This document shows, in pieces, positions 1 through 3,015 of a DNA stretch of 64,000 nucleotides; positions within the stretch are counted from its first letter, which is position 1, and every line of letters begins with the position of its first letter. This stretch comes from Blastococcus mobilis. GTDB lineage: Bacteria > Actinomycetota > Actinomycetes > Mycobacteriales > Geodermatophilaceae. The notes beneath the pieces are model-generated. The model searched no databases. It saw only the letters and a program-made list of their open reading frames with translations, and was not told where the DNA came from. The position numbers were made by a program, and so were the translations under genes. The stretch lies in NCBI RefSeq assembly GCF_900188025.1, contig NZ_FZNO01000007.1, positions 1 through 64,000 of the forward strand, read 5' to 3'.

Positions 1-95
1 CCACCCGCTACGACAAGCTCGCCGTCCGCTACGAGGCCACCGTCCAGATCAGCGACATCGACATCTGGCTGCGCGACCTTTCAAACAGGGCCTAG
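1..95 (+). CDS. IS5-type transposase, C-terminal fragment (runs off left edge)
   Basis: Thirty codons in frame 3 end with TAG at 93-95. The residues read TRYDKLAVRYEATVQI and then a tail containing WLRDL. This resembles the C-terminus of DDE transposases of the IS5 family, where an R-Y-D-K motif just after the catalytic glutamate helix is followed by a short Trp-Leu tail. Only this tail is inside the window, so it cannot be said whether the gene is intact. It lies inside the integrative element, so the insertion sequence is a passenger. The subgroup is not certain. Confidence 0.6.
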   Translation, partial: TRYDKLAVRYEATVQISDIDIWLRDLSNRA

Positions 96-398
96 GCCGC
101 CGAAGGGCTCCCCCCGGCCAGGCGCGGCGCAGGCGCTGGACAACTTGTGCGGCAGCCCGGCCACCGCAGACCGGCGCAGCCCTGAAGAAGTACTGGGGAG
201 TAACTGGAGAAGGCACGTGGCGCGGACGAGACGAGCTGACGGCACACGCGCGGCGCTGACACGGCCGACCCATCACGGAGCCCGACTGGAGAGCAACCGG
301 AACAACAGGACCCAGGCTTCCGCCATGAGACCCGCAACCGGTCGTCGCGGGCTGTGCTCCCGCAAACAATCGGGCCTCCGCTACGGTCCTGGTGCCCG
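96..398. other. Intergenic stretch inside the element, no supported gene
   Basis: About 300 bases between the transposase stop and the next plausible gene. An open frame at 145-402 on the plus strand has an arginine- and threonine-rich composition typical of chance frames in GC-rich DNA and is not called. The right inverted repeat of the insertion sequence should lie in the first tens of bases after the transposase stop, but it cannot be identified without the left repeat. Confidence 0.5.
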
Positions 399-704
399 AT
401 GACCCGGGCCATGCAGCCACGGACCGTCGCAAGGAAACGGCAGGATGAGCCGCTAGCCATCGCTCGGGTTCGGGACTACCTCGGCACAGAAGAACGGCTC
501 AACCGCCGGGCCGGCGTCTCCTCGCTCAGCGGCGACCGTGCAGATGACGACCCCAGACTCACGAGCGTCTGCCACGCGCTGGCCGAAGCCCGGCGAGTGG
601 AGCAGTTCGAGGATCACATCCGCCGAGTCGTGGACGCGGCGCCGCCTCTAACCGCTGAGCAGCGCGACAAGCTAGCCCTGCTGCTCCGCGCAAGCTACGG
701 CTGA
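399..704 (+). CDS. Small hypothetical protein of actinobacterial mobile elements
   Basis: The 101-residue product has a basic N-terminus and a C-terminal helix-rich segment, ARRVEQFEDHIRRVVDAAPP followed by LTAEQRDKLALLLR. Sequences of this kind (V-x-R-V-V-D-x-A-P-P-L-T-x-E-Q-R-D-x-L-A-x-L-L) recur in short proteins beside integrases and insertion sequences in actinobacteria; their function is unknown to me. The start is uncertain: ATG 399 is used, ATG 411 is an alternative, and the frame is open upstream to 354. There are no cysteine motifs or membrane segments. The gene faces the integrase, 3' end to 3' end. Confidence 0.5.
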   Translation: MTRAMQPRTVARKRQDEPLAIARVRDYLGTEERLNRRAGVSSLSGDRADDDPRLTSVCHALAEARRVEQFEDHIRRVVDAAPPLTAEQRDKLALLLRASYG

Positions 705-808
705 CCAGCTCACGCCGCCACCGGCGTCGACCCCGACGTAGACCAGGACGATCACCCACCGTTCCGTGGACGGCGCCAAGCCGCCCACCAGCCGGGTCAG
801 CAGCGCGA

Positions 809-976
809 TCAACTGGTGCGCCGCATGATGCCCGACTCGCGGTGCCCCTGCGCGGCGGTGCGCGTGTACCGCTCCGTCGAACGGCCTTGACCGATGTGCA
901 CGTAGTCGGGGACGGCGACGCGCCGATACGGATGCGAGGGGTCGTCGCAGAGAATGAAGAGCTTCTCGATGCTCAC
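809..976 (-). CDS. 55-residue hypothetical protein coupled to the serine integrase
   Basis: A GTG at 974-976 overlaps the integrase stop TGA (973-975) in a GTGA junction, the standard signature of translational coupling. The product begins VSIEKLFILCDDPSHPYRRV, continues with a DYVHIGQG segment and ends in a basic tail rich in Arg and Ser. It contains one Cys and several His residues but no domain I recognise. Its position directly after the integrase suggests a partner of that enzyme, such as a recombination directionality factor or regulator, but that is inference from position alone. A longer reading of the same frame to 1078 would overlap the integrase by about 100 bases and is less likely. 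Confidence 0.5.
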   Translation of the reverse strand: MSIEKLFILCDDPSHPYRRVAVPDYVHIGQGRSTERYTRTAAQGHRESGIMRRTS

Positions 977-2382
977 GACGTCCTCCACGCGATCTCGATG
1001 CCGCGAGGGTCGAAGTAGGAATCCCCAGGCCGCCAACCGGGCGGGCGACCCCGGCGGGTTCGGTGGACGGTCACGCACATGAGGGTGTCGAGGATGGCCC
1101 GACGCCGCGACAAATCGAGGATGGGCCAGATTTCGGCCGCGTCCCCGCCGACTACTCCGTCGAGCACTGACGCGCCGGCGGCTGCGGCGAGCTGCCGATC
1201 CAGATCTTCGAGTTGTGATCTCAGGGTGGCGGAGCCGCGCTCCATCTGCTGCCCGGTGATGTGACCGGCTGCGAAGCGGTCGACGAGCTCATCCAGTCGG
1301 GCCTGGATCGCGAGCCGCTCAACGTGGAGGTCGGTCGTATCCACGGTCGTCGGCGTTCGAGCCAGGTCCGCCGCGTCGGGTCGGGACAGCCGTTCGATGA
1401 GGATGTGCTCGACGAAGTCATCGAGCGGTTCGCAGCGACGCACGACATGCGCGCCCTGTTCGCACCGGTAGGCCGGTGCGTGTCCCCGACCCAGGCCGCC
1501 CGTCCCTGCCGTGGTTGCCCGCAGGGCGGCGCCGCAGATCCCACACAGGTACAGGCCTCCCCCGAGCCACCTACGGGCGTTTCCGGTCGTCGTGCGGCGG
1601 CTGACGTCCGACAGCATGGCCCGCACGGCCTGCCACAACGGCTCCTCGACGATCGCGGGCCACCCGGCCCTGCCCACCACCTCGCCGCGGTGCTCCATCA
1701 GTCCGGCGTTCCGGGGACGCGCCAGCAGCTTTCGCACCTCGGTCGGCTTCCAGACACCACCCGTCGAGGTCGTGATGCCGCGGGCGTTCCAGTCGCGGGC
1801 GATGGCGTGGAGACTCATTCCAGCCAGCAGGTCGTCGGTCACCCGGCGGATCTCGGCCGCCTCGCTTTTGCGGATCGTGACCCCGTCCGCCTCGTAGCCG
1901 AACGGACGCCGGCCACCCTTCCACCGACCGGACGTCGCCGCCTGCAGCTTTGCCGCCTGCTGGCGCTCGATCAGGTGCTCGACCTCGTATCGGCCGGCGC
2001 TGCCGAGCATCCGGGCCACCATCCGACCGGACGGTGTCGCGAGGTCCAGCGGCCCGGCCTTCACGGTCTGCGTGATGACGCCGCGGGGGTCGCAGACATC
2101 GATGTAGTGCTCGAGCTCAACCGGTCGGCGGTGCAGCCGGTCGGTATGCCATACGACGACGGCGTCGGCGCGCCCTTCCTCGAGGTCGTCGAGAAGGGCG
2201 CGATACCCCGGACGCGGCTTCGCAGAGTAGGCGGAGAGGTCGTTGTCACTGTGGTGGCCGATAATCTTCCAGCCGAGCCGCTCGGCCAGGTCCATGCAGT
2301 CCTGGCGCTGCCGATCCACGCCGAGTCCGGCGCCCTCCCGGTCCCTGCTCATCCGCGTGTAGATGACCGCTCGACGGCGCAT
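973..2382 (-). CDS. Large serine recombinase (site-specific integrase)
   Basis: The 469-residue protein has the layout of large serine integrases. The N-terminal resolvase-type catalytic domain (about 1-150) contains VIYTRMSRD, giving a nucleophile at Ser12. It is followed by DRQRQDC, a VWHTDRLHRR arginine cluster and a long helix. A recombinase domain covers about 158-258 (RRPFGYE, GITTSTGGVW, LLARPRNAGL). A zinc-ribbon-like segment has Cys280, Cys283, Cys307 and Cys317, and an alpha-helical segment at about 350-405 could be the coiled coil that controls directionality. The ATG at 2380-2382 is one base from the stop of the truncated yifB fragment, so the gene begins at the chromosome junction. 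It probably catalyses integration into and excision from the yifB att site. No truncation or frameshift is seen. Confidence 0.93.
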   Translation of the reverse strand: MRRRAVIYTRMSRDREGAGLGVDRQRQDCMDLAERLGWKIIGHHSDNDLSAYSAKPRPGYRALLDDLEEGRADAVVVWHTDRLHRRPVELEHYIDVCDPRGVITQTVKAGPLDLATPSGRMVARMLGSAGRYEVEHLIERQQAAKLQAATSGRWKGGRRPFGYEADGVTIRKSEAAEIRRVTDDLLAGMSLHAIARDWNARGITTSTGGVWKPTEVRKLLARPRNAGLMEHRGEVVGRAGWPAIVEEPLWQAVRAMLSDVSRRTTTGNARRWLGGGLYLCGICGAALRATTAGTGGLGRGHAPAYRCEQGAHVVRRCEPLDDFVEHILIERLSRPDAADLARTPTTVDTTDLHVERLAIQARLDELVDRFAAGHITGQQMERGSATLRSQLEDLDRQLAAAAGASVLDGVVGGDAAEIWPILDLSRRRAILDTLMCVTVHRTRRGRPPGWRPGDSYFDPRGIEIAWRTS

Positions 2383-2383
2383 G

Positions 2384-2659
2384 CTAGAAGCGTCCCACCG
2401 ACAACATTGACAGGTCGAAGCCGCTCCCCTGCTTGGGCATCGACGCCGGCGACAGACCGATGGTGATCCGCCGCTGCGGAAAGCTTGCTCCGGCGTTGAC
2501 GACCGCTGCGCGGACCCGGTCGACCGACTGGCGGACCACCGCGTCGGGAAGGCCGACCAGCGCCACGTGCGGCACGCCGGCGGCCATGTCGACCTCGACC
2601 TCGACCATGGCGCCGTGCACCCCTGCGAGGCCCACCGACCAGGTGCGGGCGAGGGTCAC
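2384..2659 (-). pseudogene. yifB: yifB/comM (Mg-chelatase-like AAA+ protein), 5' fragment interrupted by the element
   Basis: Ninety-one codons remain of a protein normally about 500 residues long. The N-terminus (ARTWSVGLAG, ALVGLPDAVVRQSVDRVRAA, GASFPQRRITIGLSPAS) matches the N-terminal domain of the YifB/ComM family, which aids branch migration of natural-transformation intermediates in some bacteria. The AAA+ ATPase and C-terminal domains are missing. The GTG start at 2657-2659 overlaps the yraN stop in a GTGA junction. The last ~6 residues come from the inserted element. The remainder, and probably dprA, should lie at the far end of the element outside the window. Confidence 0.88.
2387..2415. 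other. Probable attachment-site junction (attL/attR) in yifB
   Basis: Reading yifB on the minus strand, the conserved segment PKQGSGFDLS is followed by a few non-family residues and a TAG at 2384-2386. In intact YifB/ComM proteins G-S-x-F-D-L is followed by a hydrophobic A-V-A-V-L helix. The switch marks where host sequence ends and element sequence begins. The crossover dinucleotide cannot be set from one end alone. Confidence 0.6.
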
Positions 2660-3015
2660 GGGAACGCCGCCCGGAGGTGCGTGACCAGCGCCGGCCGGGA
2701 CGGGCGCACGAGCACCCCGACGACGTCGAAGCGCAGCTCCGGCGCGTGCTCGTCGTGCGCCGCCAGCCACCGCTGGGCGAGGGTGCGCAGACGACGCTGC
2801 TTGGTGCGGGTGACCGCCTCGACCGGATGGCCGTAGCCGACCCCGCGCCGCGTCTTGACCTCGCAGAAGACGAGGGCGTCCCCGTCGCGGGCGACGATGT
2901 CGAGCTCACCCTCGCGGCAGCGCCAGTTCCGGTCCAGCACGCGGAAGCCGCGGTCGGTGAGATAGGAGACGGCGATCCGCTCGCCATGGACGCCGAGATC
3001 GGTGGATGTGGACAC
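2656..3015 (-). CDS. YraN family (UPF0102) nuclease-like protein
   Basis: The 119-residue protein starts GVHGERIAVSYLTDRGFRVL and contains GELDIVARDGDALVFCEVKTR, the E-x-D...E-V-K pattern of the PD-(D/E)XK-like fold that defines YraN/UPF0102. A metal-dependent nuclease role is predicted for the family, but no defined cellular function is established that I know of. The ATG at 3013-3015 gives the usual length. It overlaps the start of yifB by four bases and sits in the conserved rnhB-DUF2469-yraN-yifB order of actinobacteria. Confidence 0.9.
   Translation of the reverse strand: MSTSTDLGVHGERIAVSYLTDRGFRVLDRNWRCREGELDIVARDGDALVFCEVKTRRGVGYGHPVEAVTRTKQRRLRTLAQRWLAAHDEHAPELRFDVVGVLVRPSRPALVTHLRAAFP

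Follow-up and report, generated by a model that had tools for sequence, protein, structure and literature searches.

Evidence for a serine recombinase-borne element integrated at codon 83 of yifB in Blastococcus mobilis

A large serine recombinase (LSR) pairs the attP site of a mobile element with the attB site of its host, cuts both at a central dinucleotide and rejoins them as attL and attR. In the partial text of Durrant et al (2022; PMC10083194), 12.4% of the LSRs predicted to be site-specific target homologs of the magnesium chelatase/ATP-dependent protease gene, with an enrichment of competence genes among LSR targets, and in the partial text of PMC9203015 the magnesium chelatase gene of Wolbachia is the integration target of most sr1WO recombinases of phage WO. 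In our reading, the annotation magnesium chelatase/ATP-dependent protease denotes the YifB family. Here we analyse bases 1-64000 of contig C63 (the window) of the B. mobilis genome (5.09 Mb in 88 contigs; family Geodermatophilaceae, a name taken from tree labels), where the beginning of yifB, which we take to be of one family with comM, is followed by an LSR gene. The family assignment follows from the genomes of Blastococcus saxobsidens, Blastococcus aggregatus and Geodermatophilus obscurus, which recur in the set of family genomes with the same match coordinates and fall outside the genus group (g1) of the window genome. We put the probability that an LSR-borne mobile element has integrated into yifB at codon 83 at roughly 94%. 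What carries this reading is the observation of the two junctions, of uninterrupted sites in relatives, of an integrase gene that is intact and of seven further elements that share the left junction.

The 5′ part of yifB, from codon 1 to the junction and on the host side of attL, occupies 2414..2659 on the minus strand (TIGR00368/PF13541). It was recognized through a 128-amino-acid open frame (2384-2770, minus strand) that matches YifB (TIGR00368, E 7e-24, residues 44-122; PF13541, E 7e-21); read from a GTG at 2659 the frame encodes 91 amino acids and ends ...GFDL-SMLSVGRF-stop. With the intact gene of a same-genus relative (G012) as reference, YifB is continuous to the leucine of KQGSGFDL, codon 83 of 506, and then gives way to SMLSVGRF; residues 1-85 are 96% identical to the YifB of that relative. 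The pattern AAGCAGGGGAGCGGCTTCGACCT, at 2412-2434, also marks this 5′ part. A preliminary description of this DNA had placed the change to non-family residues and a stop at about codon 85, and we measured the break in codon 83. The description had also noted a complete LSR gene one base past that stop, and this was confirmed: the stop codon is at 2384-2386, a single base (2383) intervenes, and the ATG of a 469-amino-acid LSR is at 2382.

The rest of yifB was sought in the same genome and found on another contig, where a search with PF01078 located a Mg_chelatase domain. Residues 80-506 are encoded at G000:C77:43786-45066 (minus strand), and the gene that comes next is dprA-like (by visual judgement in this genome; the B. 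saxobsidens copy matches PF02481 at E 4.6e-64). The tail has an in-frame TAG in the attR arm, and its open frame is 432 amino acids long in all four split members of the family. From this arrangement we infer that YifB/ComM function would be lost and dprA expression lowered.

Integrase-free relatives, in which a truncated yifB was also sought, have a gene that is uninterrupted at the site. All 12 of the same-genus genomes that were aligned read through codon 83, with TTCGACCT in 11 and TTCGATCT in one, each followed by uninterrupted yifB, and 15/15 other genomes of the genus are continuous across the codon as judged by match span. In two of these 15 (G004 and G005) the yifB match stops at a contig edge further downstream, G005 being also split near codon 300. 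A survey of 112 genomes of the family, for which, as for the class search described below, figures are those among each genome's candidates scored, showed 104 spanning codon 83, four split at codons 77-87 and four without a verdict, since G134 gave no match and G020, G103 and G112 matched in 3′ parts only. The four split genomes are the window genome (G000), G067, G074 and G097, and in each the gene for this LSR lies immediately behind the 5′ part of yifB. A wider yifB search matched 235 of 246 genomes among the matches listed, a figure not usable as a class split count. The preliminary description had deduced an att site inside yifB/comM used by an LSR element and had named two outcomes that would speak against it, a genome lacking the rest of yifB and integrase-free relatives with the same truncation; since the tail is present on C77 and the relatives are uninterrupted, neither occurred, and both junctions together with the empty sites bear the deduction out.

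Additional yifB matches were also seen apart from the split genes. In genus g56 of family f33 many genomes have two yifB matches among the matches listed, which may reflect a long insertion in the protein, a split gene or a paralogue. An extra partial yifB accompanies a near-complete gene at G010:C2:44714-44818, G106:C119:4839-5165, G088:C16:3627-3917 and G095:C1:776562-777410; these four partial copies may have been left by earlier integrations or have travelled as gene parts on elements.

Both junctions could be read in five elements, four of which were used for the core and dyad counts. The attL sequence is TTCGACCT in 5/5 elements. At attR, B. saxobsidens and Nonomuraea have TTGCCCT and the other three have TTGACCT. 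The arm read on C77, TAGACGTGTCCTGACCGT..TTGACCT, has conserved counterparts in the attR of B. aggregatus and G. obscurus and a recognisable one in B. saxobsidens. The only run of at least two bases common in register to attL and attR of all four elements is CCT. When the element ends are joined, an imperfect dyad appears in which GTGTCC faces GGGACAC, GAGACAC or GGGACGC, both sides being equally far from the C^T boundary, with arms at ±22. Pooled over the four elements, 44 dyad pairs were counted at the C^T centre, compared with 15-30 at 12 other between-base centres and 13-32 at on-base centres; the shuffle p values of three of the single elements are 0.003, 0.02 and 0.005. As CCT is the only shared run and the dyad is centred at C^T, the core dinucleotide is predicted to be CT, the first two bases of codon 83, a prediction that we regard as well supported though short of proof. 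The junction alignment proposed in the preliminary description has been run on four elements and yields a candidate core at 2412..2413 on the minus strand (read 2413-2412). On its element side, the arm of attL (2383..2411, minus strand, delimited by junction comparison) carries GGGACGC, a near-mirror of GTGTCC in the attR arm.

The integrase gene (int) occupies 973..2382 on the minus strand and is intact. Its product has an N-terminal resolvase catalytic domain (PF00239, residues 5-154, E 7e-29) and a Recombinase DNA-binding domain (PF07508, residues 173-258, E 1e-13), and its length matches that of its relatives. The best PDB sequence match is 9iu2 'Integrase' (E 3.7e-14), which we take to be Bxb1; the N-terminal serine region is aligned, with YTRMSRDRE on VIRLSRVTD, and the aligned serine is presumably catalytic. 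Cysteines near residues 280-307 also align with the 9iu2 chain, and a Pfam scan of the window LSR gave no zinc-ribbon match, whereas two LSRs found at another place in yifB (L046 and L129, below) do match PF13408. Integrases that occupy this yifB site in Blastococcus and Geodermatophilus are 79-84% identical to the window LSR. Among phage and plasmid records, 750 phage and 2585 plasmid entries match it, all at <60% identity and thus with no close relative among them. This integrase would probably be the one that made the insertion, and excision may still be possible.

Identity to this integrase goes together with the integration site. LSR loci were collected from genome contigs (4 loci from 27 stretches) and viral contigs (2 from 4), and a search of 394 genomes of the class, 20 of which match the LSR at E 1e-75 (the window's own included), gained two more loci. 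All LSRs of at least 50% identity for which an upstream flank was available lie at yifB codon ~83 (8/8: the window, B. saxobsidens, B. aggregatus, G. obscurus, Nonomuraea cavernae, an IMG/VR contig, G269 and G386); a ninth, L054, has no upstream sequence to judge by and is separated from the B. saxobsidens copy by a branch of zero length. By comparison, 0/32 more distant LSR loci (14 among the matches listed of one search and 18 from the class search; flanks up to 1.5 kb) are at codon 83; in three of these (L013, L112 and L117) the flank contains yifB at a different position. In a tree of 43 rows the nine codon-83 rows form one group that requires a single change (shuffled mean 8.3) and is present in 96% of 200 bootstrap trees; long-branch warnings concerned L129, L019 and L121, none of them in this group, and L016 was left out for its broken frame. 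Counted from one reference codon, the LSR begins at 40-41 bases in the five Geodermatophilaceae-type elements. The single base that separates int from the yifB stop in the window is a spacing that relatives do not share. Coupled translation of the yifB head and int was considered as a conserved feature and rejected, since the stops fall at offsets 39, 141, 45, 102 and 78 and the int starts are fixed at 40-41.

A second LSR gene is present in the window genome (G000:C83:1773-3281, L143), ~35% identical to the window LSR, on a contig of 17 kb with no yifB match.

The genes carried by elements at codon 83 differ widely. The B. saxobsidens element is contiguous, 10,315 bp long, and encodes a large terminase (phrog_9, E 2.6e-83); the IMG/VR element also has a terminase (phrog_9, E 5e-25). 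The B. aggregatus element is contiguous as well, with 90,844 bp on contig C8 at about 48 kb-139 kb (L066-L070). Its cargo includes genes of conjugation and pilus type; a coupling protein of the TraG/TraD type was identified (PF12696, E 4e-26), as were T2SSE/T2SSF-type genes and an M23 peptidase, and there is, as judged by eye, a large catabolic set (acyl-CoA and phenylacetate metabolism, transport). Head-to-tail accretion was considered for this element and rejected: an exact attR-arm pattern and an exact yifB-site pattern occur once each, at its true ends, and tblastn finds one integrase. In Nonomuraea, where the arms are on different contigs, one arm encodes a tape-measure protein and the other an FtsK-like protein (PF01580). 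Pfam scans of two terminase frames and of a frame judged VirB4-like by eye gave no match. Given carried genes so different, one integration module seems to ride on very unlike elements.

A more far-reaching reading is that the codon-83 integrases are a portable module on unrelated element types (terminase-bearing phage- or satellite-like, and conjugative-like) with the int promoter lying across attP. Inspection by eye of the five Geodermatophilaceae-type elements shows a GACACT-like box 6-7 bases ahead of the int start (in the window it reads GACGCT); once the arms are joined, TTGACC (three elements) or TTGCCC (B. saxobsidens) stands upstream of this box. These right-arm hexamers might act as a -35 and the box as a -10; if so, integration would turn the -35 into the TCGACC seen in attL and leave int behind the yraN-yifB operon. 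A scan of window 2300-2700 for the sigma-70 consensus found no promoter at attL, and this lowered the already small odds of this far-reaching reading, which we now consider quite unlikely. Because the box overlaps a dyad arm, the simpler reading is that it would belong to the integrase binding sites.

How the element relates to its host was weighed next to these data. An intact LSR and conserved att arms are what one would also find if the insertion had been domesticated, with the integrase-yifB arrangement kept as a host switch that excises under some condition to restore competence, and phage A118 in Listeria comK is a precedent (partial text of PMC4701971). The occurrence is patchy (4/112 family genomes), the carried genes differ and insertion sequences (IS) have decayed the element, a parasite-like picture that makes domestication quite improbable.

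The element is seen as two arms, 2,413 bases on C63 and 5,821 bases on C77, and so spans at least 8.2 kb in total. Contig C63 ends at window base 1 in a repeat, so that the element middle is not linked in the assembly: its first 95-96 bases have 100% identical copies at three other places in the genome, and the repeated sequence that ends here (1..96, plus strand) is probably the 3′ end of an IS5-like transposase, a family we assume and for which a Pfam scan gave no match. This repeat is the likely cause of the contig break. At the C77 end, fragments of a DDE transposase (PF13701) are spread over several frames, and C36 has related sequence. The C77 arm has a G+C fraction of 0.64-0.75, compared with 0.76-0.78 in the adjoining host sequence, and carries a polyketide-cyclase-like frame (PF10604) and an 867-amino-acid frame for which a Pfam scan found no match. 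On the window arm, a small open reading frame of 116 amino acids (354..704, plus strand) has a weak match to a phage family of unknown function (phrog_24177, E 2.5e-4) and none in Pfam and NCBIfam scans; by eye, its C-terminal motif resembles that of a 75-amino-acid frame in element L053. The preliminary description had put the cargo outside the window, on its left, which is partly right: the window itself holds 2.4 kb of the element, and the contig stops at base 1.

With both contig ends in such sequence (PF13701 at the C77 end, the four-copy repeat at C63 base 1), two unrelated events could be imagined, an IS-driven rearrangement that broke yifB and an LSR remnant that happens to lie beside it. 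The break is at the same codon as in seven other flanked elements, two of them contiguous in one contig (B. saxobsidens and B. aggregatus), and the window LSR is intact and not a remnant, so that we hold this to be very improbable.

Tn7-like elements end in TGT...ACA, from which the ends of this element differ. The 11 frames of the two arms that were scanned against Pfam included one transposase family, PF13701 at the C77 end, and no TniA/TniB-type gene, the element middle being absent from the assembly. Least credible of all is that a Tn7-like transposon, such as the AbaR islands for which Acinetobacter comM is a known target (partial text of PMC11472951), made a 5-bp duplication of GACCT with the integrase as a mere passenger: three of the four elements (window, B. 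aggregatus and G. obscurus) do share GACCT between attL and attR, but the right end of B. saxobsidens is TTGCCCT, so that CCT alone is shared and no 5-bp duplication holds across the four, and the LSR start is fixed relative to the reference codon in a group of LSRs that tracks the site.

Several points weigh against integration of a single LSR-borne element at codon 83. The arms lie on different contigs, and between the C77 end and the C63 start there is no end-to-end overlap of 15-300 bases and no shared run of at least 12 in the terminal 200 bases, so their belonging to one element is inferred; given the IS-bearing ends, a rearrangement after integration is conceivable. In Nonomuraea the CCT of the right junction is one base out of register, for which reason it was left out of the dyad count, and the GTGTCC arm is missing. 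The dyad of G. obscurus alone is weak (9 pairs, shuffle p 0.13), and the tree support of the codon-83 group, 93/91, is below the starred level of 95/80.

According to the model, the element would enter the host genome as a circle, its LSR joining attP to an attB inside the chromosomal yifB. The exchange of strands would take place at the core CT in codon 83 (the leucine of KQGSGFDL) and cut yifB into an 83-codon head followed by int and a headless 3′ part, with the AAA+ domains, beside the dprA-like gene. The integrase gene would thereby be placed directly behind the yifB head and in the orientation of yraN-yifB; yraN (PF02021) lies at 3015-2656 on the minus strand and overlaps the yifB start. 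Insertion sequences would have invaded the element later, where the assembly now breaks.

Other LSRs interrupt yifB elsewhere or lie beside it. A different lineage splits the gene at HRGVLFLDE (~codon 306), presumably the Walker B motif, in G039 (L046, 3630-5333) and G005 (L125, 340-2013); the two LSRs are 79% identical to each other and each ~28-32% identical to the window LSR. In G091 an LSR of ~26% identity (L129, 460-1803) adjoins yifB residues 301-506, and LSR domains were found in L046 and L129. In G073 yifB is split near codon 300, with no LSR near either part by the queries used. In G326 (L112) and G474 (L117) the gene runs to codon 479-480 and an LSR of 39% identity comes next. In G033 an LSR (L013/L144) neighbours a 3′ piece of yifB that lies some 15 kb away from the remainder of the gene. 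The LSRs of L112, L117 and L013/L144 (37-39% identity to the window LSR) mark a third integration point in yifB, at codon ~480. With hits at codons 83, ~306 and ~480 by separate LSR lineages, convergence on one gene can be studied in one family and its relatives. An integrase group with junctions, a predicted core and natural empty sites could also serve as an integration tool in Geodermatophilaceae and some other actinobacteria.

The preliminary description had expected the locus to define a distinct integration niche, a claim that falls because the gene is already a known LSR target (partial texts of Durrant et al, 2022, PMC10083194, and, for phage WO, PMC9203015); the kind of integration is thus already known. 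What is added here, set against Durrant et al with its supplementary tables left aside, is an actinobacterial group, the codon, a predicted core and empty sites, and hence an actinobacterial case of the known tendency of serine integrases to break yifB. A literature search found no paper naming this integrase group or pairing Geodermatophilaceae with a serine integrase, and none pairing magnesium chelatase and integrase with insertion site. The host of phage WO belongs to a different phylum from that of the window host. The phage WO prophage resembles the window element in having a serine recombinase and in being flanked by two parts of a magnesium chelatase gene (partial text of PMC9203015). 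The LSRs of Durrant et al and the window LSR are alike in enzyme class, kind of target gene, disruption of the coding sequence and site specificity of the cluster (partial text of PMC10083194). Phage A118 also splits a competence gene by means of a serine recombinase (partial text of PMC4701971), but its target comK is a competence activator, unlike the YifB/ComM ATPase. In Acinetobacter, loss of comM lowers transformation with heterologous DNA and has been discussed as reducing the removal of mobile elements (partial text of PMC11472951); by analogy, reduced removal is a possible benefit to the window element. The AbaR islands interrupt the same gene family, comM in Acinetobacter (partial text of PMC11472951), but do so by Tn7-like transposition, whereas the window element would have used serine recombination.

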